Positions 1-11,921 of a stretch of DNA of 64,000 bases are shown piece by piece (positions within the stretch are counted from its first letter, which is position 1; each line of letters opens with the position of its first letter). The notes under the pieces are model-generated. The model was not told the origin of the DNA and ran no database searches. It saw only the letters and a list, made by a program, of their open reading frames with translations. Position numbers and translations under genes: made by a program. The DNA is from Urbifossiella limnaea. Lineage in GTDB: Bacteria > Planctomycetota > Planctomycetia > Gemmatales > Gemmataceae. The stretch spans positions 6,742,322 through 6,806,321 of the forward strand of contig NZ_CP036273.1 in NCBI RefSeq assembly GCF_007747215.1, read 5' to 3'.

Positions 1-1
1 T

Positions 2-649
2 AGCCCAATTACTCATCTCGACCCCACCGGCTTGACCACCATTGATGATGTCGAGGCGCTGTGGGAAGAGTTTCTTGATTCCAGTAATCAACACGTCTAC
101 GACATGCTACTCGACGCAATTCTTCTGCTCGACGTGCCCATCCCGCCGCAACAGCTCCGGGGCGCTCTTGCCCGTATGAAAAACTCGTTGTTTGAGATTA
201 CGACCCAGCATCCGGATAATCAATATTATGGCTTCATCGCGGCCTTTAACTGGATCATTTATAAGAATGAAATGGAGATTCGCTGGTTGCTTTTTCCTGG
301 TATGGCAGCATCACTAAGTGAGCTGAGCCGGATCTACGTTGGTTCTACCTGCAGCGATTGCGACGCAATTGCGAAAGCTACCAACAGCAAGATAAGAGAG
401 CTTGGGCATGATAATCCTGCCGTACGTGAAGCAGCGCAAGCATCTATTAGAAGTGATATCGATCTCTTTCTCATGAGCGGTAATAGGACCGGCATGAACT
501 GTCTCATCAGAACATTGCTGCAAGCCCTCGGGTCGGCTACCAGCCCTGAGGTGGCACGTAGGTTGCGTGCGTTAACAAGGGGCCCAAGCTTCTATACGCC
601 GACTCCGACTCCGCTTCCACCCGGGGACCGAGGAGTTCCTATCTTTTAG
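2..649 (+). CDS. Unknown protein, 5' end outside window
   Basis: The reading frame is open from base 2 to the TAG at 647-649, with about 215 residues visible. The first possible start inside the window is a TTG at 32, without a clear ribosome binding site, so the gene probably begins upstream. No known domain was recognised. The protein looks soluble and mostly helical, with a proline/threonine-rich tail (TPTPTPLPPG) near the end. Base composition is clearly less GC-rich than most of the window, as it is in the next gene, which suggests that both came in together or belong to an accessory region. A role cannot be given. Confidence 0.6.
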   Translation, partial: SPITHLDPTGLTTIDDVEALWEEFLDSSNQHVYDMLLDAILLLDVPIPPQQLRGALARMKNSLFEITTQHPDNQYYGFIAAFNWIIYKNEMEIRWLLFPGMAASLSELSRIYVGSTCSDCDAIAKATNSKIRELGHDNPAVREAAQASIRSDIDLFLMSGNRTGMNCLIRTLLQALGSATSPEVARRLRALTRGPSFYTPTPTPLPPGDRGVPIF

Positions 650-725
650 CGATATTCGCCAATGCCTGGATTTGTTGACCAAAACGCCAATCGCGCTACG
701 CGTCACGCAAAGGGAGCAGTCAGAC

Positions 726-1841
726 ATGTATGCAAAGTGCATCGTGCTGTTCACAATCGTCGTGGTGAGTACGTCTCAGCCAGTTCCTGCGACTGGCCAA
801 CCGCCGGCAAGGCCAATCAAGCTATGGTCAAGAAATCTATCAGTAGATGAAAATGTAAAAATGCAAGTCCAAAGCCTAATTTTTTCAAGGGAAGGCAATA
901 GCGTCGGAGTGTACAGTACGTATTTTGCTAAGTTCGATACTATTTATCGTGATTTTGCTAAGTTGTCCTTATTGAATTCGACGGATGGCACCATGCGAGC
1001 TAACGAGAGTATTGGCATGGTCCGGATCGCTGCAGACGATAGACGGCAGGTGGCATTTTTAGCCAACGAGCGATTGTTGTTTGCCGTGGACGGGCGTATG
1101 GTCATCATGAATAGTAGTAATGGGAAAATTGAGACTAGTTCCAAGAATGATGCGAAGCTCTACCTGAGCACCTGGTCAATAACCAACGGAAGCGTATTGA
1201 TGTTGTTGGCACAAAATGGAAAGGCCAAATTAAGCCTGAACAAAGAGATAAATGAAAATATGCATGCCAGGTCGCCTTTACGCGAGATCGGGTCGGCGAG
1301 CATCGCAATTAATACCGATCGGCTAGAAGAGGGCCTGTCTTACCTCGTATCAGTCAGTGCGAATGGCGCGTATCTAGCGGTGGGCGAGCTAAGCAATACG
1401 CCAGGCGGATCGCCACTGACACTATATAGAATTTCCACCGACAGCGGTGTTAAGGTGGACATCTTACACAGGACTAGCTCGACGGCCCCGTCTTGCGTTC
1501 GCCTTTCTCCAGCCGGCGACTTGCTTGCAATTGGTGCTAAAGATGGTGGCATAAAACTTCTTGGCACGAAGGTTGTTGATGGCAAATTGCTGGAATATGC
1601 CAGCTTCCGTCGTACGAATTGGACAATTGCAGACATTGCATTTTCGCCAAATGGCAAGTCCATGGCACTCTGCTCAACCGGGGACAAAGATGTGTGGTTG
1701 GTAGATATCGAGAAGAAGATTTCCACTGACAAGATTGCACTTACTGATATCCCAACTTCCTTAGCTTTTTCACCGAACGGCAAGACCTTGGCGATTGGTA
1801 CGTTTCAGGGACGTGTTGAACTATGGGGTATCAACAACTAG
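726..1841 (+). CDS. Secreted WD40-like beta-propeller protein
   Basis: The frame opens at 672, but ATG 726 is the better start: AGGGAG lies about 10 bases upstream, and the protein then begins with a signal peptide (MYAKCIVLFTIVVVS followed by a polar cleavage region). The mature part carries WD40/PQQ-type blades; the clearest are LSPAGDLLAIGAKDGGIKLL, FSPNGKSMALCSTGDKD and FSPNGKTLAIGTFQGRVELW near the C-terminus. In planctomycetes such propellers often follow a kinase or act as secreted scaffolds; here no kinase domain is attached. GC content falls well below the 68-70% typical of the rest of the window. The ligand or partner is unknown. Confidence 0.7.
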   Translation: MYAKCIVLFTIVVVSTSQPVPATGQPPARPIKLWSRNLSVDENVKMQVQSLIFSREGNSVGVYSTYFAKFDTIYRDFAKLSLLNSTDGTMRANESIGMVRIAADDRRQVAFLANERLLFAVDGRMVIMNSSNGKIETSSKNDAKLYLSTWSITNGSVLMLLAQNGKAKLSLNKEINENMHARSPLREIGSASIAINTDRLEEGLSYLVSVSANGAYLAVGELSNTPGGSPLTLYRISTDSGVKVDILHRTSSTAPSCVRLSPAGDLLAIGAKDGGIKLLGTKVVDGKLLEYASFRRTNWTIADIAFSPNGKSMALCSTGDKDVWLVDIEKKISTDKIALTDIPTSLAFSPNGKTLAIGTFQGRVELWGINN

Positions 1842-2150
1842 AGCCGGTATCCATTGCGCGCGAGGTACGACCACAGCCAGACTAGTGGATTCACCATCAC
1901 AACATCTCAGTCGAGCGAGGATCGCTCCCGCTCAGGCCGTAGCCTCGCCGCTTCAAGTTTACTTTGCCTGTCACACTGAGCGATTGAGAGGAGTATGGAC
2001 CGCCTCTCACGCGCACGGCGGTCGATAGGCACTGCCGGGCATTCTTCTTTCGTTCGCACGGCAAGGAGGCGCAGTACGCGCCAGGTGGATCACGTTATTG
2101 ACGGGTGGGATGTCTTCTCGGTTTGTTCCGTTCCCCCCGAGGACGCACCG
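1842..2150. other. Intergenic region, no convincing gene
   Basis: About 310 bases between the propeller gene and the IS66-type remnant. An ATG at 1995 with GAGAGGAG just before it opens a frame into the remnant, but the peptide in between has no recognisable features. I see no copy of the tRNA-Arg(CCG) 3' end here, so this is not an obvious left end for element 1. Confidence 0.4.
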
Positions 2151-2453
2151 ATGTCCGACCCCGTTGCTCCATCTGGCACCACTTCGGACCCACTCCGCCG
2201 CCGTGACCCGGCCGCCACCCATCAACGGTGGATTGAGCACCTCGACCGGGTTTGCACAGACGAGCAAACCGTCGCCGCGATCTGCGCCGCCGCGGGCGTG
2301 TCCGTCCCGGCCTTCTACCAGTGACGGCGCCAGCTCGCCGCCACGGTCGCGGGTCGAAGACAACAGGTCGTGTTTCCCCGCGCGTCGTCCGACCGATCCG
2401 CTCCGCTAACACCCCGATTTCGGACCACCAACCCCGACTCCGGTATGATGTAG
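2151..2453 (+). pseudogene. IS66-type accessory HTH protein, nonsense-interrupted
   Basis: From ATG 2151 the frame encodes a helix-turn-helix segment (HQRWIEHLDRVCTDEQTVAA then ICAAAGVSVPAFYQ) like the small TnpA-type proteins of planctomycete IS66 elements, where FYxWRR is the usual recognition-helix end. The expected Trp is replaced by TGA at 2322-2324. In the same frame RRQLAATVAGRRQQ follows and runs to a TAG at 2451. One G-to-A change would therefore explain the break. Nothing else of an IS66 element follows, so this is a relic. Confidence 0.55.
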
Positions 2454-2474
2454 CACTCTCGGAGGTGGCACCCT

Positions 2475-2612
2475 TTGGCAGCCCGTGGCAGACATTCCGC
2501 CGACGACGCGCTCGTCGCCGAGCTGGCGGCGGGCAAGACTGTCCGCGACGCGGCGACTGCCGCCGGCGTCGCCGAGCGGACCGCGTTCCGCCGGCTGAGG
2601 GGTAGGATGTAG
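2475..2612 (+). CDS. Small HTH protein, 45 aa (possibly a truncated terminase-small-like gene)
   Basis: This TTG-initiated frame is preceded by GGAGGTGG at 2461 and, further up, by TATGAT at 2444 as a possible -10 box. The product has one homeodomain-like HTH (ADDALVAELAAGKTVRDAAT then AAGVAERTAFRRLRG), the fold found at the N-terminus of phage terminase small subunits and of many planctomycete mobile-element regulators, such as the products at 36045-36440 and 42181-42561 here. It stops directly after the HTH, where the others continue with a helical oligomerisation part, so it may be a truncated relative. Short similar sequences (GGTATGATGTAG and GGTAGGATGTAG) end this frame and the preceding one. 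Confidence 0.4.
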   Translation: MAARGRHSADDALVAELAAGKTVRDAATAAGVAERTAFRRLRGRM

Positions 2613-2633
2613 TATCCCACGGGGGGCACAAGC

Positions 2634-2933
2634 ATGAACCAGATCACGACCAAAACCCCGGAACTGTTACCCAAGACGCTGCCGGGCGTGGTCTGCGCCC
2701 AGCGCGTGCGGTGCGGCAAGCTGGGCTGCCACTGCGCCCACGGGCCAGGCCATCTCGCCTTCTATCGCTTCTGGCGTGAAGGTGGCCGGCTACGAAAGTG
2801 CTACGTCCGACGCACCGAGTTGGCATCGGTTCGGGCCGCCTGTGAAGCCCGTCAACGGGAGCGCCGAGAGCTTGCCAAAGGTTGGCAGCAGTGGCGGGAA
2901 CTGGTACCCGTCGTGCGGGAGGTTTCGACATGA
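2634..2933 (+). CDS. DUF6788-like cysteine-motif protein
   Basis: ATG 2634 has GGGGGG about 8 bases upstream. The 99-residue product contains RVRCGKLGCHCAHGPGHLAF followed by YRFWREGGRLRKCYV, the CGKxxCxC...H...GRxxxxYV pattern of small DUF6788-type proteins found beside mobile genes in planctomycetes and other bacteria. The cysteines and histidine could bind zinc. The C-terminal third is a charged helix (ACEARQRERRELAKGW). The stop overlaps the next start as ATGA, so the two genes are translationally coupled. Function unknown. Confidence 0.6.
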   Translation: MNQITTKTPELLPKTLPGVVCAQRVRCGKLGCHCAHGPGHLAFYRFWREGGRLRKCYVRRTELASVRAACEARQRERRELAKGWQQWRELVPVVREVST

Positions 2934-3676
2934 GCGCGGTCGCAATCACACCGGCGGCACCGAACGAGGCGGGCGTGATCGCCGGGGAGTTGGTAAAGTC
3001 ATTCGGCCAGATGGTCCAGCTCTACGAGAAGCACTTCTCTCTGACGCGGGAGGAAGCGATTCAACGTGCCGCCGCGCCCCCAGCGGACGAAGGCGAGCGC
3101 GCCCTGAACGGGCCGCCCGATCAGGTCAGTTGGTTCGACCTGCACGGCATCGCCCACACCGATCCCGACCGCGCGACCACCCGCTGGGAGGAGATCAAAC
3201 GCGCCGCACTGGATGAACTCCGGACGGGCCACCGGGCGGCCGGAGCCGTTGAGACGGCCAACGACGGCGCCTGGCAGCGGGCGCAATTCCTGGCTTTGCG
3301 GGAGGACCTGTCGGCCGAGTGGCAGCCCCGCAACGGCGTCGAGCGACAGCTCATCGACACCATGGCGCAGGCGCAGCAGGGCTTCCTGCACTGGCTTCGG
3401 ACGTTGACGATCCGCACGACCCTGGAGAGTGTCACCAACGACCGGCGCCACAAGGAGGAGGGCCGGTGGGGGCCGCCGCGGCAGAGCGACGCCGACGCCC
3501 TCGACCAGGCCGCCGCCATGATGGACCGGTACAACCGTATCTTTCTGCGGACGCTCCGCGCCCTGTGCGACATGCGGCGGCACAGCGGCCCCGTGATCGT
3601 CAAGAAAGGCGGCCAGATGAACGTGGCCCAGCAACAGGTGAACGTGGTTACAGAACCGTCAGCTCAGCGACACTGA
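2930..3676 (+). CDS. Unknown helical mobile-element protein with QQQVNV tail
   Basis: ATG 2930 overlaps the preceding stop (ATGA), which decides the start over the longer open frame. The 248-residue product is rich in helix (long amphipathic stretches around residues 110-215), without signal peptide or membrane segment. It ends with IVKKGGQMNVAQQQVNV, a tail that I associate with proteins next to DUF6788 genes in planctomycete elements. The pair with the upstream gene looks like a fixed two-gene unit. A DNA-binding or packaging-type role would be a guess. Confidence 0.55.
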   Translation: MSAVAITPAAPNEAGVIAGELVKSFGQMVQLYEKHFSLTREEAIQRAAAPPADEGERALNGPPDQVSWFDLHGIAHTDPDRATTRWEEIKRAALDELRTGHRAAGAVETANDGAWQRAQFLALREDLSAEWQPRNGVERQLIDTMAQAQQGFLHWLRTLTIRTTLESVTNDRRHKEEGRWGPPRQSDADALDQAAAMMDRYNRIFLRTLRALCDMRRHSGPVIVKKGGQMNVAQQQVNVVTEPSAQRH

Positions 3677-3774
3677 CCCCCCTTCCCGATCGCCTACCGA
3701 CCTACCATTCGGGGCGCGCCCGCGCGTAGCATCGAGTTGGGTAGCCGCACGGCCCGCGAACCGTGTGGTGATTT

Positions 3775-3829
3775 GCAGTCGGGCGGTGCTTGTTGGGTGG
3801 TGTTCTCCCCGACGACACCGCCCGACTGC
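3775..3829. repeat. Perfect 14-bp inverted repeat ahead of the 591-aa gene
   Basis: The arms GCAGTCGGGCGGTG (3775-3788) and its exact complement (3816-3829) are separated by 27 bases. The structure ends 21 bases before the start at 3851, in a gap of about 170 bases after the preceding gene. It could be an attenuator hairpin, an operator for a dimeric regulator, or a recombination site. Confidence 0.6.
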
Positions 3830-3850
3830 CCCGACACGAGAACACCTACC

Positions 3851-5626
3851 ATGTCGGTCACGTCCTCCCGGTGGGAACCGGGGCGCAACCCCATTCACCG
3901 CCTGATTCAATGCCTCGACGTGTTGGCGATAGCCTTCAACCGGTTCCGTCAGCTCTCCTTCGCCTTGCCCAGGCACCGGGACGAAACGCCGCCCGAGCCC
4001 GGGACGGGTGCCGCGTACACCGCCGAGCGGAACCGCCTGTTGGCGGACTTCGAAGCCGTCCGGGACACCGTCCACCGGCCGGGGCAGTGGGGTGCCCCGG
4101 GTCACTTCGCACAACGGCTGAACGATGAAGCCGTCGCCGCGTTCGCCCGCGTCGGGCTGCGGGACGAGGGGACGCGACAAGCCGTCGGTGAGGCGGCCCA
4201 GTGGGTGAGTTACGTCCTCACGCCGTGGAGCATCGGCCCGACCGCTCGACCGTGGGACTACGGTTCCCACGAGTACGAGCGGCGGGGCGGATCACGAGAG
4301 AGCACGTTCGAGGCGGAAGGCGCGTTGTTGTTCCGCAGTACGTCGATCCGCGCCGCCTTGCTCGCCACGTTCGCGGTGGCCGGCGAAGTCGTCCCGATCG
4401 AAATCGACCAGCGCCGGCGCCTGATGCACGACTCCTGGCAACAGGCCGCTCCCATCACACAGGATGAGCTTCTCGCCATGGCACGGGAAACCCAACCCGG
4501 CGACCCCAGCAGGTCAACGAACACCCTCGCTGAGCGGGTCCGGACCCGCGAGGAGCAACTCGCCACCCACGAACGGGAGCGGGAGGAGCGCGCCCGGAAG
4601 CTCGAAGCGATGGCGATTCTCGACGTGACGACCGCGTGCCAGGTCGCCATGCCCCAGAACCGCCACGACCTCGAATCGCTCCGACGGGGGGAGCAACGGG
4701 CGTCCGCTCTCCCGCGGGTCGGCGAGATACCCCCGTACAGCGCGGCGGCAGAGCTGCCGCAGCACCACGTCGATGCGATCGTCGAGCGCGTCGCCGCGTA
4801 CCGTGCGGCCCTCCGCGGCGCCTACGGCCCGGACGAAGAACCACCGACTCCCCACATCGGTGCCTTCGGCTCCGAGCGCGCGTTGGACGGCGGGCTGCTG
4901 CCGCCGTCCGACGAGGACCGGACGCGGTGGGACGACGCCGTGCGCTGGCTCTACCACGCCGAGTTGGCCGACGTTCGCACCGAAGCCGCGGGGTTGGCGA
5001 CCACGCCCGCCGGCCGCGACGAACTCCGGGCACTCTGCGAGACGCTGTTCCACAGCGTCGTGTGGCGCGCCGCCCAAAACCTCCACCACCTCCTACCGCC
5101 CCTGCCGCCGGAACAGCCGACCGCGGCCGAGTTTGCCGAGCAGCAGCGTCTGTGGGCCGAGTTCGCGGAAGCGCTCGCCGCGCCGGCAGCAACTACCACC
5201 GCGGCCGACCCGCCACCGCCCGACGAGGTTTCTAAAGTAGGCGGGAATAGAGGCAACACGGGCGAGCGGAAGCCGTCGCCGGGTGACACGGGAGTTCTCG
5301 GCAGCCCGGGGCAGGGCGGAGAGGCAACGACACCGGCTGAGGCCACCGACGCTCTTGACGCGAAACTGAGCGGGCTGTCGAAGGGGAAACGCGCCGCGTA
5401 CCTGCAATACCGGATCGCCGCCCGGGACATGATCGACCCCACCGACCGGGCCGCTTACGACGCGACGAACGAAACCCTACCCGAAGGCGAGTCACTCCCG
5501 CCGTTCGACACGTGGGTGCGATACCTTCGGCAAGCGAGGAACCACCTCAATCAACAGAAGAACAAGCCGCGACGCCCGCCGAGCCCGTCGGAGGTGCGTT
5601 CCGCCAGACCTGCCGACCGCCAGTAA
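3851..5626 (+). CDS. Unknown 591-aa mobile-element protein
   Basis: The frame is open from 3737, but ATG 3851 is chosen because the upstream part lies over the inverted repeat at 3775-3829. The protein is acidic and helical. A coiled-coil stretch occurs near residues 225-265 (LAERVRTREEQLATHERERE). A low-complexity linker rich in Ala, Pro and Gly follows near residues 435-500, and a basic C-terminal helical domain (LQYRIAARDMIDPTDRAAYD) ends in a Lys/Arg/Pro tail. No catalytic motif was recognised. It lies between the coupled DUF6788 pair and the Xis-like genes of element 1, so it is probably an element-specific accessory protein. Confidence 0.55.
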   Translation: MSVTSSRWEPGRNPIHRLIQCLDVLAIAFNRFRQLSFALPRHRDETPPEPGTGAAYTAERNRLLADFEAVRDTVHRPGQWGAPGHFAQRLNDEAVAAFARVGLRDEGTRQAVGEAAQWVSYVLTPWSIGPTARPWDYGSHEYERRGGSRESTFEAEGALLFRSTSIRAALLATFAVAGEVVPIEIDQRRRLMHDSWQQAAPITQDELLAMARETQPGDPSRSTNTLAERVRTREEQLATHEREREERARKLEAMAILDVTTACQVAMPQNRHDLESLRRGEQRASALPRVGEIPPYSAAAELPQHHVDAIVERVAAYRAALRGAYGPDEEPPTPHIGAFGSERALDGGLLPPSDEDRTRWDDAVRWLYHAELADVRTEAAGLATTPAGRDELRALCETLFHSVVWRAAQNLHHLLPPLPPEQPTAAEFAEQQRLWAEFAEALAAPAATTTAADPPPPDEVSKVGGNRGNTGERKPSPGDTGVLGSPGQGGEATTPAEATDALDAKLSGLSKGKRAAYLQYRIAARDMIDPTDRAAYDATNETLPEGESLPPFDTWVRYLRQARNHLNQQKNKPRRPPSPSEVRSARPADRQ

Positions 5627-5633
5627 CTCGCGT

Positions 5634-5669
5634 CCGGTTTCCTCGAACCGGATTTCCGCCGGAATCCGG
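5634..5669. promoter_or_regulatory. Two overlapping small inverted repeats, probable operators
   Basis: CCGGTT-6-AACCGG (5634-5651) overlaps CCGGATT-8-AATCCGG (5648-5669), at the start of the 180-base gap before the two HTH genes; further CCGGTT boxes follow at about 5732-5745. This clustering in the leader of Xis/regulator genes fits binding sites for one of their products, but no footprint evidence is available. Confidence 0.4.
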
Positions 5670-5805
5670 TCCGCTGCCGCTCTTTGCATTTCCCCTGTCA
5701 TTTCTTGTCAACCGCGACCGGATGCCGTGCGTCCGGTTTTCTCCGGTTCGGGGCTATGTACGCGGGCTCGAACGGTGCGAGGCCGCTGCCCAACCGTACC
5801 CGGTG

Positions 5806-6039
5806 ATGACCACGACACCCTTACCCGACCCGGTCGCGCTCCTCAGCGTGGATGATGTTGCGGCGCTGCTCGGCGTCTCGCCGCGGACCGTGTGGCGCCT
5901 GCGCGACGGCGGACACCTCCCGCCCCCCGTTCGCGTCGGGTCGCTCGTCCGCTGGCGCCGGGCGACGCTGCTGATGTGGCTCGACGAAGCGACGGAACCC
6001 CGCCGTGACGGCCGGAAGGGGGGTCGCACCAATGACTGA
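5806..6039 (+). CDS. Excisionase-like HTH protein (HTH_17/MerR type)
   Basis: ATG 5806 gives a 77-residue protein. LLSVDDVAALLGVSPRTVWR then LRDGGHLPPPVRVG and LVRWRRATLLMWLDE is the standard winged-helix layout of AlpA/Xis-type DNA-binding proteins: helix, turn, recognition helix, a G-x-L/P wing and a final helix. Such proteins bend att DNA for excision or repress element promoters. It overlaps the next gene by 8 bases, and the neighbour is a second protein of the same kind. Confidence 0.7.
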   Translation: MTTTPLPDPVALLSVDDVAALLGVSPRTVWRLRDGGHLPPPVRVGSLVRWRRATLLMWLDEATEPRRDGRKGGRTND

Positions 6040-6325
6040 CATCTCATCCGACCCGGCCCCGACGACTCGCAAGTCCAAGAGTAGGCGCCGGCCGGTTGCG
6101 CCGCGGATGCTGGGCCGCGACGAGGCGGCCGAGTTCTGCGGCGTCGGCGGCGTCTCGACGTGGGACCGGCACACCGCCGCCGGGCTGAACCCGGCGCCGG
6201 TCCGGCTCGGCGGCGCGGTGCTGTGGAGCCGCGCCGAGTTGGCGGAGTGGTGCCGCCGCGGGTGCCCGCCGCGGACGGAGTGGGCGCCGATCTGGCGCGA
6301 GTTGTTGGCCCGCCGCGCGAAGTGA
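6032..6325 (+). CDS. Second Xis/HTH_17-like DNA-binding protein
   Basis: ATG 6032 follows GGAAGGGGGG and overlaps the preceding stop. The 97-residue product has a basic N-terminal arm (TTRKSKSRRRP) and then MLGRDEAAEFCGVGGVSTWD and LNPAPVRLGGAVLWSRAEL, the same HTH plus wing arrangement as its neighbour. Two small Xis-like proteins side by side suggest one excisionase and one regulator, a pairing seen in satellites and other integrative elements. Which does which cannot be told from sequence. Confidence 0.65.
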   Translation: MTDISSDPAPTTRKSKSRRRPVAPRMLGRDEAAEFCGVGGVSTWDRHTAAGLNPAPVRLGGAVLWSRAELAEWCRRGCPPRTEWAPIWRELLARRAK

Positions 6326-6399
6326 CACCCCACCCCCAAAACACAGTCGGGCCGGGTGCCGCCCTCGGAAGCTCGCACCCGACCCGATCGGAGAAACCG

Positions 6400-9060
6400 A
6401 TGGGCAATCTACCAGGCAGTCGGCCCGACAGGGAAGGCTGGATTCGCGTCAGCAAGTCTCAGCCGTGCCCGGTGTGCAAGAAGCCGGACTGGTGCATGGT
6501 CGCGCCCGACGGAAACGCCGCTATCTGCCAGCGCGTCGAAAAGGGAAGCACGAAGCCGTGCGGCGACGGCGGTTGGCTGCACCGCCTGACACGGGCCTCG
6601 ACCCGCCCGGGGCCGCAGGGGGCTCGGAAGGGGCGTACGGTCACGACCGACTGGACCGCACTGGCGGGCCGGCGCGCCGCCGAACTGAACCCTGCCCGGC
6701 GGAACGATCTCGCCCGCACGCTGGGGCTGCCGGCCGACGCCCTCGACGCGCTGCCGCTCCTCGGGTTCCACAACGACGCCCGCGGGGCGTACTACACGTT
6801 CCCGGAGGCGAACGCCGGCGGGACCGTCGTCGGGTTGAATCGCCGGTTCGCTGACGGCACGAAGAAGGCACTCCCCGGGAGCAAGCGCGGGCTGACCCTG
6901 CCGGCCGGGTGGCGGGAGCGACCCGGCCCGGTGTTCGTCGTCGAGGGGCCGACCGACGCGGCAGCGATGACCGCCGCCGGGCTGTCGGCCGTGGGGCGGC
7001 CGTCCAACACGGGAGGGGTGGCACACCTCGCCGAGCTGTTCGGCGACCTGGACGCCGGCCGGTCGGTCGTCGTGGTGGGCGAGAACGACCGGAAGGCCAG
7101 CGGCGAGTGGCCGGGTCGCACCGGCGCCGAGTCCGTCGCCCGCGGGCTCGCTGGGCGGCTCGGGCGGGCGGTCCAGTGGGCGCTGCCGCCCGAGGGCGCG
7201 AAGGACGTGCGGGAGTGGCTGACCGCGTCGGCCCCTGGCGAGACGCCGTGGCCCGACCGGGGCGTCGAGCTCGGCCGCCGTCTCGTCGCTGCGGCGGTCG
7301 GGATCGACCCGCCGCCGACCACCACGGCCGACGGTTCCCGGTCTGCGGTGCCGGACATCGTCATCGGCCCGGACGAACACCGGGTCAACGCCGAGGCGAC
7401 GGCCGCCCTCGCCGCCGAGGAGGACGTATATCAGCGCGGCGGGCTGCTGGTTCATGTCCTCCATCAATCGGACGACTCGGACCTCGACGCCGTGGTCCGC
7501 CGGCCGGTCGGCGCCCCGGTGGTGCGCGAGCTGGCCCGCCCGCTCCTGCGCGAACGGCTCACGCGGGTCGCGCGGTGGACGCAGTGGCGCGGGGCCGGCG
7601 AGAACGCCGAGTTGGTTGAGGCCCACCCGACGGACTGGTGCGTCGGCGCCGTCCACGCCCGCGGCGACTGGCCCGGCCTCCGCCGGCTCGACGCCGTCGT
7701 CACCCACCCGGTGCTGCTGCCGAGCGGCGACCTGTTGACCGCCAACGGGTATCACCGCGGCGTGCGATTGCTCGCCGCCCTGCCGGCTGACTTGGCGGTG
7801 ACGGTGCCCGACGCGCCGACCCGCCAGGACGTGGACGCCGCCGTGGCTGCGCTGCTCGACCCGCTGGCCGACTTCCCGTTCGAGACGCCGGCCCACCGGG
7901 CGGCACTGGTGGCCGGGCTCCTCACCCCGCTGGCGTGGTTCTTGTTCGACGGCCCGGCCCCGCTGTTCCTGATCGACGGGAACGTCCGCGGGGTCGGGAA
8001 AGGCTTGCTCGCCGACGTGGTGGCGCTGACGGTGACCGGCCGGCGGTTCCCGGTGATGAGCTACACGAACGACCGGGAGGAACTGCGGAAGAAGATCACC
8101 ACGCTGGCGATGGAGTGCGAGCGGCTGGTGCTGCTCGACAACCTGGCGGGCGCGGTCGGGAACGACATCCTCGACGCCGCCCTGACGACCGACCGGTGGA
8201 AGGACCGGGTGTTGGGCGGCAACCGGGTGTACGACGGCCCGCTCCACGTCGTGTGGTTCGGGACAGGGAACAACGTGCAGCTGGGCGCCGACACGTCCCG
8301 CCGGGTGTGCCACGCCCGGATGGAGTCGGCGGACGAGCGGCCGGAGATGAAGGAGGGGTTCCGCCATCCCGACCTGCGGGGGTACGTCCGGCGGGATCGG
8401 GGGCGGCTGTTGTCGGCGGCACTGACGATCCTCCGCGCGTGGGTGCGGGCCGGGCGGCCGAGGCACCAGCTGCGGCCGTGGGGCAGTTTCGAGGGTTGGT
8501 CGGGTGTCGTGCGCGAGGCGGTGGTGTTCGCCGGGCTGCCGGACCCGGGCGAGACGCGGGTGGCACTCCAGACGACAGCCGACCGGGACGCGGCCGCGAT
8601 GGCGGACGTGATCGCCGGGCTGATCCACCTGGACGACACGGGCCGGGGGTTGACGACGGCCGACATCGTCGGCCGCATCAAGGAGGCGGAGCGGGAGGCG
8701 CCGGCGGAGTGGATGTCGAACCTCCGGGCCGCGGTGGAAGACCTGTGCGGCAAGCTGTGCGGGCGGACGCTCGGCTACCGGTTTCGGCACTTCGCCCGCC
8801 GGAACTTCGGCGGCAAGGTGCTGGACAAGGCCGACGCCCCGCACGGGTCGAACCGGTGGGTCGTGCGGGACGTGAAGGGGCGAGCGGGTCGGGAGCATGT
8901 CCACCATGCCCACCATCACCACCCGGACCCGCGGCCGGCCGGTGGGGATGGTGGAGATGGTGGAGATGATTCCGCCCGGCCGGCCGCGGTTGAAGCCGCC
9001 CTGCCCCGTTCGCGGACGCGGTTCGTCAACGACGACACCCCGCACGACGTGAGGGGGTGA
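6400..9060 (+). CDS. Zinc-finger/TOPRIM/helicase replication protein
   Basis: ATG 6400 is chosen because it starts just before a zinc-binding segment (Cys23, Cys26, Cys32, Cys43: [10 protein letters not shown], then ICQRVEKGS), as in bacterial and phage primases. A TOPRIM-like part follows near residues 165-235 ([27 protein letters not shown]). The C-terminal half holds a P-loop-type ATPase ([19 protein letters not shown] near residue 525) in the position of the helicase domain of phage replication proteins; the loop is not a textbook GKT/S Walker A. A His-rich stretch (HVHHAHHHH) lies near the C-terminus. Probably starts replication of element 1 after excision. Confidence 0.7.
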
Positions 9061-9063
9061 GCG

Positions 9064-9402
9064 ATGCCGACCACTGCCGCGCCGGCGACCGTCGCGGACT
9101 TGCTCGCCGCCGTGTTGGCGTACCGGCCGACGGTGGAGGACGGGGCGTTGGCGTTTGCCGTCGAGTTGCCGACCGAGTTGGGGCGACGGCTCTGGGTGCT
9201 CCACACCGGCGTCCGCGCGGCGCTGGCCGGTCGGCCGTGGTATGGGTGCGGCTCGGAGCGCAAGGCCGCGGCGCCGCGGCCGCTCGACCCCGCGGCGCCT
9301 ATCCCGCCCGGTGTCACCCTCCTGTGCGTCGAGGGCGACCGGCGCTGGGACCGGATCGACCCCGACGCCCGGCTCGACCTGCCGGACCTGTTCGTGCCCT
9401 GA
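9064..9402 (+). CDS. Unknown 112-aa protein of element 1
   Basis: ATG 9064 lies three bases after the stop of the replication gene, so it is co-transcribed and probably coupled. The product has no signal peptide, membrane helix or known motif; it starts with a helical part ([19 protein letters not shown]) and ends with [13 protein letters not shown]. Third-position GC and the tight spacing support a real gene. A role in replication or integration is only suggested by position. Confidence 0.5.
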
Positions 9403-9415
9403 CAGTTACCAAGCT

Positions 9416-9442
9416 GGCGGCCGGTTGGCCGCCGGTTATACT
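9416..9442 (+). promoter_or_regulatory. Palindrome overlapping a -10 box ahead of the integrase
   Basis: GGCGGCC-GGTT-GGCCGCC (9416-9433) is a perfect 7-bp inverted repeat directly followed by TATACT (9437-9442), a good -10 match, about 75 bases before the integrase start. No clear -35 box is seen at 17 bases. A repressor on the palindrome would block this promoter. Confidence 0.4.
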
Positions 9443-9515
9443 CCTCATTCAATCGTTCGCTGGCGGGTTGCACCCAACCTCCCAACAGCGAGCGACGACA
9501 AGAAAGGTTGCTCCG

Positions 9516-11921
9516 ATGGCGACCCTGTTCAAGCCGACCCGCCCGTACCCGCTCCCGCCCGCCGCCGAGGTGGTCGAGAAAGACGGCCGCCCCCACGCCC
9601 GCGTCCGGGAGAAAGGGAAGGCGGTGCTGTACCCGCTGAGCGCGGACGGCACCGCGTACCTGAAGCCCGCCGCGAAGTGGGCGGCCGACGTGCGGTTCGC
9701 CGACGGCAGCCGGAAGCGCGTGCGGTTCTCCCCGAACCGCGACGCCGCCGCGCTCATGCTGGCCGAGCTGATGAAGCGCATCGAGAACGAGAAGGCCGGC
9801 ATCCGCGACGACTACGCCGACCACCGCAAGCGGCCGCTCCGCGACTTACTCACCGAATACGAGCAACACGTTCGGGACAAGGGTGCTACCGGGAAGGAAG
9901 CCGGCCAGGCCGCGCGTCGGTGCGAGCTCGTGTTCGATGCCGTCGGGTTCGTCACGCTGAAGGAGTTGGACGCGACCCCGGCGGAGCGCTGGCTGGCCGA
10001 GCGGCGTGCGATGCCGAAGGCGGACGGCGGGTTCGGGCCGGCCACCAGCAACCACTACCGGAAGTCGCTCGTCGCGTTCGGCAACTGGCTCGTGAAGGCC
10101 CGTCGCGCCGCCGAGAACCCGTTCCGGCACATCCCGAAGGTGAACGAAGACGTTGACGTGCGGCATGAGCGTCGGCCGCTGACGGCGGAGGAGTACGCCC
10201 GTGTTCTCGACGCCGCCCGCGGAGGGAAGGTGTACCGCAAGATGGCCGGCCCAGACCGACGGATGCTGTACCTCATCGGCGGCGCGACGGGGCTGCGGTC
10301 GGGCGAGTTGTCCAGCCTGACGCCGGGTTCGTTCGAGCTGACGGCAGACCCCCCGGCGGTCGTGGTCGAGGCCGCGTACTCCAAGCACCGCCGCCGGGAC
10401 ACGGTCCCGTTGCACCCCGACCTGATCCCGGAGCTGCGGTCGTGGTTGGCCGGCAAGCCGGCCGCGGCACCGGTATGGCCGGGTAAGTGGGCGAAGCACA
10501 CCGAGGCCGTGGACATGATCCGCCGCGACCTGGAGGTGGCCCGCGCCGTGTGGGTTGGCGAGGCGACGACCGCCGCCGAGCGGGGCGAGCGCGAGCGGTC
10601 GGACTTCCTGTGCTACCGCGACCGGAACGGCCGGGTCGCCGACTTCCACGCGCTGCGGCACACGTTCATCACCGAGCTGGTCCGCGCGGGGGTATCGCCG
10701 AAGGACGCGAAGGAGCTGGCGCGGCACTCGACCATTACCCTCACGATGGACCGGTACGCCCACGTCGGCATCCGCGACACGGCCGCCGCAGTCGCCAAGC
10801 TGAGCCTGCCAACCCACAACCCCGGGGGTGGTGAACCGGCTGCACTGCGTGCGACCGGCACGGATAACGGCCCGGGTTCGGGAGCAGCAACGGGAGCAGC
10901 AGCAGGCGGTAGCAGGCGGGGAGAATCGGGGACAAGTGAGGAAACGGACGGTACGGGGCGGACGACCCCGAGAACGAGTCAACCCCTGCGTTTGGCAGGG
11001 GTTGAGGACGATCGAGGACAATTGGGGGGAGTATGCCCGACAGGAGTTGAACCTGTAACCTTCGGCTCCGGAGGCCGACGCTCTATCCAGTTGAGCTACG
11101 GGCACGCACGTCTTCCAACCCGAATTCTAGCCGACCGCAGCGCGGTTTCAACCGCCGCCCCCGTTTTCACGGACTCAGCCCCGGGAACAGTTGCCGGCGC
11201 ACCTCGTCCCGGAACGGCGCCTCCGCGAACGTCCCGACCACGCGCTTCCGCGCCAGCCGGCAGTCGTACTGCCGCCGGCCCAGCCAGTAACCCGATACGA
11301 ACGACCGCTCCGGCTCCCAACCTGCCGGCTCCACCTTCCCAAACAGTGCGAACTCCGGCGGGCCCGCCAGCGGCGGTAACTCCACCCGGTCCAGCGGCTT
11401 CCCCGACTCGTCGAACAGGCCCACCGCCACGTCGCCGCGGCCGCGGTGCAGCAGGTGCCAGCGGAAGTGGATGCCCTCCTCGATGTTCAGCCCGCCGGCC
11501 GTGCTGTCGCCGCTCATCCAGGCGATCCGCGCGTCCGGCGGCGCCGTCGCCTCCACGTGGCGGACCGCGTCCCACAGCAGGTGCGCCCGGGCGGCGAACT
11601 TCTCCTGCTTCCCCACGCCGGCGACCGCCACCACCGCCAGGCCCGTACACACGCCCGCGAACGCCGCCTTCTTCCACGCCGTCAGCGGCAGCGCGATCAG
11701 CGCCGTCAGCAGCAGCGCGAACAGCACGTCCAGCCCCCACACGGCCGGCATCGCGTACCGGCCCGACATCATCGACAGCGGCAGGTACACCACCACGCCC
11801 GCGGCCACCAGCAGCAGCGCGGCGAGCACCGGCGGCGTGCCCAGCCGTTGCCACGACACGGCCTTCAGGACGCCGCCCTTCCACAGCGCCAGCGCCGCCA
11901 GCAGCAGGCCCGCGGCCATGA
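9516..11921 (+). CDS. Tyrosine recombinase (integrase) reading through its att site
   Basis: ATG 9516 has AGAAAGG upstream. Residues 1-100 form the arm-binding part, about 105-200 the SAM-like core-binding domain, and about 215-430 the catalytic domain: Arg in [11 protein letters not shown], His-x-x-Arg in HALRHTF, a second His in ARHSTITL, and the nucleophile Tyr (about 414) in MDRYAHVG. The frame stays open far beyond the catalytic domain, passing antisense through tRNA-Arg(CCG) and on into the antisense of the next gene until 11921. The native stop presumably lies on the other side of attP in the free element, so the last 300 residues are host-derived. Functional part roughly 9516-11000. 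Confidence 0.75.
11032..11105 (-). tRNA. tRNA-Arg(CCG)
   Basis: Read on the minus strand from 11105 to 11032: acceptor GTGCCCG pairs with CGGGCAT, D arm GCTC...GAGC, anticodon loop CTCCGGA with anticodon CCG, T arm ACAGG-TTCAACT-CCTGT, discriminator A; CCA is not encoded. All stems close. Its 3' end points at element 1, whose integrase is adjacent, so this is the element's target site. Confidence 0.92.

Follow-up and report, generated by a model that had tools for sequence, protein, structure and literature searches.

A probable attachment site within the tyrosine integrase gene of planctomycete integrative elements, and a conserved tail apparently detached by integration

In myxophage Mx8, the attachment site of the free element (attP) lies within the integrase gene int; upon integration this gene acquires a different 3′ end, which modifies the activity of the enzyme without abolishing it, and phages Mx8 and Mx9 are the bacterial precedents described in the excerpted text of that source (PMC6070905). 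Archaeal SSV-type ("suicidal") integrases, as portrayed in excerpts of a 2021 review, also have the attachment site (att) inside the gene, are split on integration and use tRNA targets; Phage_integr_3 (PF16795) is the domain criterion of this type, the catalytic domain lies on the C-terminal fragment, and the split halves are called inactive (PMC8371274). The same excerpts describe self-gene-disrupting integrases as exclusively archaeal (PMC8371274). In integration-dependent immunity of the BPs and Brujita type, a C-terminal ssrA-like tag of the repressor is removed by integration, according to part of the text of PMC9262239, and Islander, in its excerpted description, makes provision for integrases that reach across attP, with Mx8 and SSV as the cited cases (PMC4383910). 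Here we describe an integrative element in a tRNA-Arg(CCG) gene of Urbifossiella limnaea, the right part of which lies in a stretch of 64,000 nucleotides (the window; G000:C1:6742322-6806321) within a single-contig genome of 7.8 Mb. We consider it likely that the tyrosine integrase gene of this element contains attP between its catalytic domain and a conserved C-terminal tail, and we propose that the loss of this tail may report and lock the integrated state.

Element ends and the integrase frame

The integration target, a tRNA-Arg(CCG) gene that is restored by integration, was located by ARAGORN on the minus strand at positions 11031-11105. An initial annotation of the window had placed an integrative element of about 9 kb in this gene and proposed an upstream search for a second copy of the tRNA 3′ end. 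A search with the tRNA region as query found this copy as a perfect 46-bp match at G000:C1:6714652-6714697 (window positions -27669 to -27624), which is 27.7 kb before the window. The two att copies are 100% identical over 46 bp and in direct orientation, and no other full copy of the tRNA 3′ end occurred in the 50,321 bases scanned. Given these identical ends, the element spans window positions -27669 to 11075 (G000:C1:6714652-6753396), with positions 1-11075 as its right part, and the att-to-att distance of 38,699 bp replaces the earlier size estimate. The locus has a restored tRNA gene, a tRNA 3′ fragment at the opposite end and an integrase in between, as in tRNA-targeted integrative elements. 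The helix-turn-helix (HTH) and DUF6788 genes of the initial annotation lie inside these ends, so a left att that excludes them, which would have spoken against that annotation, did not turn up.

The tRNA-side att copy (11030-11075) lies within the frame of the integrase gene, whose tRNA-side fragment, comprising the catalytic domain and a linker, occupies 9516-11921 on the plus strand. From its ATG at 9516 this frame has no stop before att; it crosses the antisense strand of the tRNA gene, is free of stops to 11918 and ends in host DNA at 11921. The match to PF00589 (45 bits, cutoff 27.1) covers residues 222-417 and falls wholly before att. Among 30 aligned rows, K347, H417, R420, H443 and Y452 are invariant and R320 is nearly so; we take these six to be the catalytic residues of the integrase. 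The other att copy is followed by the detached tail in frame. When the two copies were joined in silico, as in a circle, the integrase frame continued for 60 codons past att into ...ADPELAALVAAWPNLPGHIRAAIRALVGAATKG and then met a stop. The open frame before att and its in-frame continuation after joining place attP inside the integrase gene, such that integration would remove the tail. That the integrase frame crosses the attachment site was absent from the initial annotation's reading of the element.

The genome has three integrases of this family. At E ≤ 0.01, Pfam assigned PF00589 to all of them and HTH_17 to two. This excisionase-type domain precedes the catalytic domain in the integrases L013 (residues 181-225) and L016 (residues 180-226); the window integrase is without it. 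The other two integrases adjoin tRNA-Lys(TTT) and tRNA-Cys(GCA), and both read into the tRNA. The tail belonging to the tRNA-Lys integrase lies 23 kb upstream of it, with an identical att peptide in the same frame. The tail assigned to the tRNA-Cys integrase is also in frame with the att peptide, but 177 kb away, and there the repeat spans the integrase linker as well (115 nt at 90%). A search of the genome with the tail peptide gave seven places at E ≤ 1, and an alignment search gave eight at E ≤ 0.001; none of the seven has a family integrase closer than 19 kb.

Integrases and tails across Planctomycetota

Among 95 genomes of the family, tails were detected at E ≤ 0.001 in 54 of 95 and integrases at E ≤ 1e-25 in 63 of 95. 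Pairs were chosen by eye among the matches listed, each consisting of an integrase and a tail that lies upstream of it, both on one strand of one contig. Of the resulting 28 comparisons, which cover 15 genomes, one is that of G048:C393; the others involve 26 integrases in 14 genomes, a single integrase being compared with two tails. Left out were G011 (tails at least 200 kb from the integrase), G010 (far apart), G024:C8 (integrase at the contig start, tail at its end), G053:C8 (a tail 0.6 kb before the integrase in two frames), and tails without a listed integrase on the same contig and strand. In 27 of the 28 comparisons, the sequence behind the catalytic domain and that preceding the tail had a repeat in common, stop-free and in frame with integrase and tail alike. 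These include G052_6.51M, in frame and stop-free, and G021_C121, which matched its second tail copy, also in frame. For 22 of these 27 comparisons, ARAGORN called a tRNA in the integrase locus, and the repeat overlapped it. Between different genomes, by way of control, the longest common word had a median of 10 nt over 644 comparisons, reaching at least 20 nt in 32 and at least 40 nt in six; the latter six came from elements with near-identical att sequences and the same tRNA type (Arg or Asp). Most paired tails are 7 to 50 kb from the integrase. Three lie at 120, 177 and 250 kb, and in these cases a single element need not fill the space between tail and integrase. The integrase loci of G052:C1 (2.19 Mb) and G053:C7 have no ARAGORN tRNA, and their att repeats measure 32 and 21 nt; the 21-nt repeat of G053:C7 is an imperfect palindrome that gives the impression of a dif site.

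A scan of named genomes yielded 212 relatives, of which the best 80 loci were analysed. Their record titles name Planctomycetota (Gemmataceae, Phycisphaerae, Pirellulales, Singulisphaera, Schlesneria), a few reading only "bacterium"; one locus, L187, is from a metagenome-assembled genome labelled Bacteroidales. Frames were counted in the 56 of these 80 loci in which the 600 nt that follow the catalytic domain include an antisense tRNA; the remaining 24 did not enter the count. The integrase frame remained open across the final 45 nt of the tRNA in 49 of the 56, against 4 and 2 for the other two frames. The contrast persisted in the ten loci with a linker guanine-cytosine (GC) content below 0.56 (9 against 0 and 1), and among 30 loci from genomes of the family, a set overlapping the phylum sample, the integrase frame was open in 20 of 22, against 0 and 0. 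The 49 open loci represent sixteen anticodon types; the stop falls within the tRNA gene for 19 of them and past its end for 30. In L229, L238 and L299 a tRNA-Arg gene stands behind the integrase on the same strand, so that the orientation of the target appears to be reversed.

The count can also be made from the tail side. A wider tail model, applied to 294 genomes sampled from the phylum, detected tails at E ≤ 1e-4 in 63. An antisense T-arm motif lay within 200 nt upstream of the tail in 40 of 60 tail loci and in an equal stretch downstream in none of the 60. The stretch from motif to tail was open in the tail frame in 39 of the 40 loci; the other frames were open in 7 and 8. No integrase match was found in the stretch read under the long tail frames of G017, G021:C101, G008:C121, G024:C9, G061 and G067. 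Several tails lie within a few kb of each other in L143 (G088:C251) and L144 (G007:C650), again with no integrase match in the stretch read; these clusters are possibly piled-up remnants of past integrations.

The tail evolves in the manner of a protein. Among 82 distinct tails (269 pairs), differences at codon positions 1, 2 and 3 numbered 1395, 902 and 3324. The median ratio of nonsynonymous to synonymous substitution rates (dN/dS) was 0.21 (92 pairs) versus 1.96 in frame +1 (42 pairs), values to be read as an indication and not as rates, since the pairs are not independent and the tails have 27 codons. Judged by these substitutions, the tail appears to be under purifying selection and hence protein-coding.

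Genes with the tail still attached were also found. An uninterrupted gene with catalytic domain, att-like peptide and tail is present in G053:C66, which has the same sequence as L169. Another is present in G047:C122 (L198), the N-terminal part lying outside that frame. In G008:C257 the att peptide and tail follow the last part of the catalytic domain, the earlier part being in another frame, and L209 ends in the tail without a peptide recognised as tRNA. Two contigs with uninterrupted integrases lack an end overlap and may represent circles, tandems or another arrangement. In L237, one frame runs from a catalytic-domain piece through an att copy into a tail, and 7 kb later a second integrase stands against tRNA-Ser. 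From its layout this locus appears to be a tandem junction at which tail and catalytic domain are rejoined, with the N-terminal part of the first integrase outside the frame. No record in the phage and plasmid collections covered 80% of the uninterrupted integrase. Among 17 IMG/VR loci, which are distant relatives, L296 has an uninterrupted integrase with a T-arm-like peptide and the tail, and a terminase large subunit gene behind it; its ends are classed as linear by IMG/VR, and so it may be a fragment. In L299 the tail is at the opposite end of the contig. In the integrase of L291, what comes after a T-arm-like peptide is another C-terminal tail, unmatched by the tail model, which may represent a second type.

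In the structure model of L169 (mean predicted local distance difference test, pLDDT, 80), the recombinase part is confident and the linker at 475-581 is mostly below 50. The tail, residues 582-607, is modelled as a hairpin of two helices whose block means range from 74 to 91. The best Foldseek matches were Brujita at the top, lambda and Xer-type recombinases.

Several observations count against the proposed arrangement or limit its extent. In G048:C393 the shared T-arm sequence is only 22 nt long and lies out of frame; integrase and tail there probably do not belong together. The single-contig genomes G072 and G075 have integrases and no tail match at E ≤ 0.001. A stop comes before the end of the tRNA in 7 of the 56 counted loci, and the integrases of L187, L219 and L233 end within 8 codons past the catalytic domain. 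The same holds within 17 codons for 9 of the 17 viral-contig relatives, in which the tail was found attached once and detached once. No empty site was found through the flanking genes: the right-flank gene matched in five of six genomes of the genus and the left-flank gene in five of 41 genomes, the own genome included each time, and in both searches the four other loci examined had no tRNA. Taken with these exceptions, the sequences support an attP in frame with the integrase, a detached tail, its in-frame rejoining, uninterrupted forms and selection on the tail.

Gene content of the composite element

The initial annotation's reading of an integrative element with an integrase, Xis-like HTH proteins and a primase-helicase-like protein was borne out, as the genes it listed are present at 2475-11105. 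The protein genes described here for this part of the window are on the plus strand. A small HTH open reading frame of 45 amino acids (2475-2612) is weak, its HTH matches being below the cutoff. The next two genes had been read as a DUF6788 pair, which is half correct: the first (2634-2933) matches DUF6788 with 34.4 bits (cutoff 27.2), and the second (2930-3676), scanned against Pfam and PHROGs, has no such match and encodes a 248-amino-acid protein of unknown function. It is followed by a 591-amino-acid protein of unknown function without a Pfam match above the cutoff (3851-5626), an Xis-like HTH protein (5806-6039; HTH_17, 49.2 bits) and a weaker one (6107-6325; HTH_17, 19.4 bits, below the cutoff). 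The primase/helicase-like replication protein (6472-9060) matches PHROG 19930, DNA polymerase/primase, at E = 5.7e-20, and PHROGs of unknown function at E of about 1e-50. Between it and the integrase lies a 112-amino-acid protein of unknown function (9064-9402) without a Pfam or PHROG match, whose homologue in the left module of the element, described below, is 57% identical. As previously annotated, structural phage genes are absent among the proteins scanned, some small open reading frames lying outside the scan.

The element had been called minimal; at 38.7 kb it instead contains two related modules with Rhs-type giant genes between its att ends. Each module has a 99-amino-acid protein (copies 96% identical) and a second shared protein (92% identical over 243 amino acids) which by eye looks like a glycosyltransferase and has a Pfam methyltransferase domain only in its longer copy. 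The giant Rhs-type genes, one per module, encode 1885 and 2347 amino acids as called and are 66% identical over 1479; the RHS repeat matches in the first and stays below the cutoff in the second. The call of the second giant gene stops at -685, its DNA similarity to the first continues to about -211, and low-GC DNA comes next, with a gene of WD40-type repeats (672-1841, plus strand, GC about 0.50). Each module also has a replication protein, with DUF3987 on the left and primase-like on the right, and a protein of 112-119 amino acids (57% identical). Behind the last shared gene of the left module, where an integrase would be expected, there is a DDE_3 transposase. The right module begins with a second tail sequence at -9486, and the 400 bases upstream of this tail lack an antisense T-arm motif. 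The composite may be a decayed tandem of two elements.

The initial annotation had also suggested that the element may belong to one lineage with a neighbouring island in tRNA-Arg(UCU). The integrases lend this no support, and at E ≤ 0.01 the called proteins of the two islands have in common only a terminase-small-like HTH protein (41% over 88 amino acids) and a marginal integrase match (34% over 73 amino acids, E = 0.006).

Possible roles of the tail and relation to described systems

In the free circle or phage, a single integrase frame would comprise the catalytic domain, a flexible linker with the att peptide, and the tail. Recombination with the 3′ end of the tRNA gene would restore the tRNA and cut the integrase gene. 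The catalytic part would remain beside the tRNA and read its antisense strand up to a stop from the tRNA or from host DNA, and the tail would end up at the opposite end of the element. The frame would be rejoined by excision or by a further copy in tandem. That the encoded protein loses its tail by integration, and can regain it by excision or a tandem copy, follows from the DNA arrangement as predicted here, and its occurrence in many related elements suggests a built-in switch between the free and inserted states. The full-length protein would be the integrating form, and tail loss might leave a weaker, more stable or excision-biased enzyme; by leaving such an altered form, tail loss would let the enzyme report and lock the integrated state. 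By analogy with Mx8, we favour a change in direction or activity. More tentatively, the self-amputating integrase may be a state sensor: the full-length form, present only in a circle or tandem array, would integrate, the tail-less form would be quiescent or excision-biased, a second copy in tandem would re-arm the enzyme, and orphan tails would be fossils of old events.

An alternative, though on balance unlikely, explanation is compact packaging, in which attP sits in a tolerant linker, the tail is constitutive and its loss on integration has no role. The predicted disorder of the linker, the variation of the att peptide with each tRNA and the relatives without an extension all agree with it. 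The reading frame, preserved across att in 27 of 28 comparisons, and the purifying selection on the tail speak against it; both are evidence that the full-length form is important, but not that its loss has a role. We regard as still less probable, though as the main alternative for the effect of tail loss, that the tail is a degradation signal, by which the integrase of the free element would be short-lived and that of the integrated one stable. Such a role would resemble that of the mycobacteriophage repressor tags, which are ssrA-like, C-terminal and removed by integration in the excerpted account (PMC9262239), and the tails are hydrophobic and alanine-rich; but the conserved block often has further residues after it and is modelled as a folded hairpin. 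Most matched tails, among the matches listed, are in frames of fewer than about 300 codons, as expected if the tail were a separate small gene, or attP-arm DNA belonging to the left end of the element, but the uninterrupted genes, the fixed frame across att and the codon-level selection make this very improbable. Scarcely credible is a minimal 9-kb element of one lineage with the tRNA-Arg(UCU) island: the genes from 2475 to 11105 resemble a small replication and integration module, but the sole matching att copy is 38.7 kb away, the second tail marks an internal boundary at -9486 and not near 2475, and almost no proteins are common to the two islands.

The integrases with a detachable tail would form a large bacterial family of self-splitting integrases, widespread in Planctomycetota, in which the tail is conserved and the catalytic domain stays whole. 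With these two properties, the role of the tail can be addressed by a simple comparison of the two forms. Tail matches offer a practical marker for the left ends of planctomycete islands and for orphan footprints of past integrations. The ends of such integrases may be misread in annotation, as their last residues are translated antisense tRNA. A literature search of open-licence papers, mainly titles and abstracts, found no description of this arrangement in Planctomycetes.

Among described systems, the Islander-type arrangement has an intact tRNA at one end, a tRNA fragment at the other and an integrase inside, as here, but the planctomycete integrase frame is itself divided between both ends. 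The mycobacteriophage systems likewise lose a protein C-terminus on integration at a tRNA gene, and the Brujita integrase is the top fold match; their attP, however, lies in the repressor gene, whereas here att lies in the integrase frame. Like SSV-type integrases, those of planctomycetes have attP inside the integrase gene, which is split by integration. They differ in that PF16795 was not found at E ≤ 0.01, PF00589 being present instead, and in that the catalytic domain is whole, on the N-terminal fragment at the tRNA side. With Mx8 they share a bacterial origin, an attP inside int and a new C-terminus on integration. Mx8 Int has the T-arm peptide GLEPVLLG near residue 416, followed by a tail of about 110 residues. 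The differences are that similarity is weak and confined to the last part of the catalytic domain (25% over 89 amino acids, E = 3e-4 in a two-sequence comparison), that the Mx8 tail does not match the planctomycete tail model, and that the planctomycete elements use many tRNA targets with a tail conserved across many elements. Judging from these sequence comparisons, the planctomycete integrases appear to work like Mx8 Int and the SSV-type integrases and, by the tests run, belong to neither. Both Mx8 and the planctomycete data contradict the statement, as worded in the excerpted review, that integrases of this kind are exclusively archaeal (PMC8371274).

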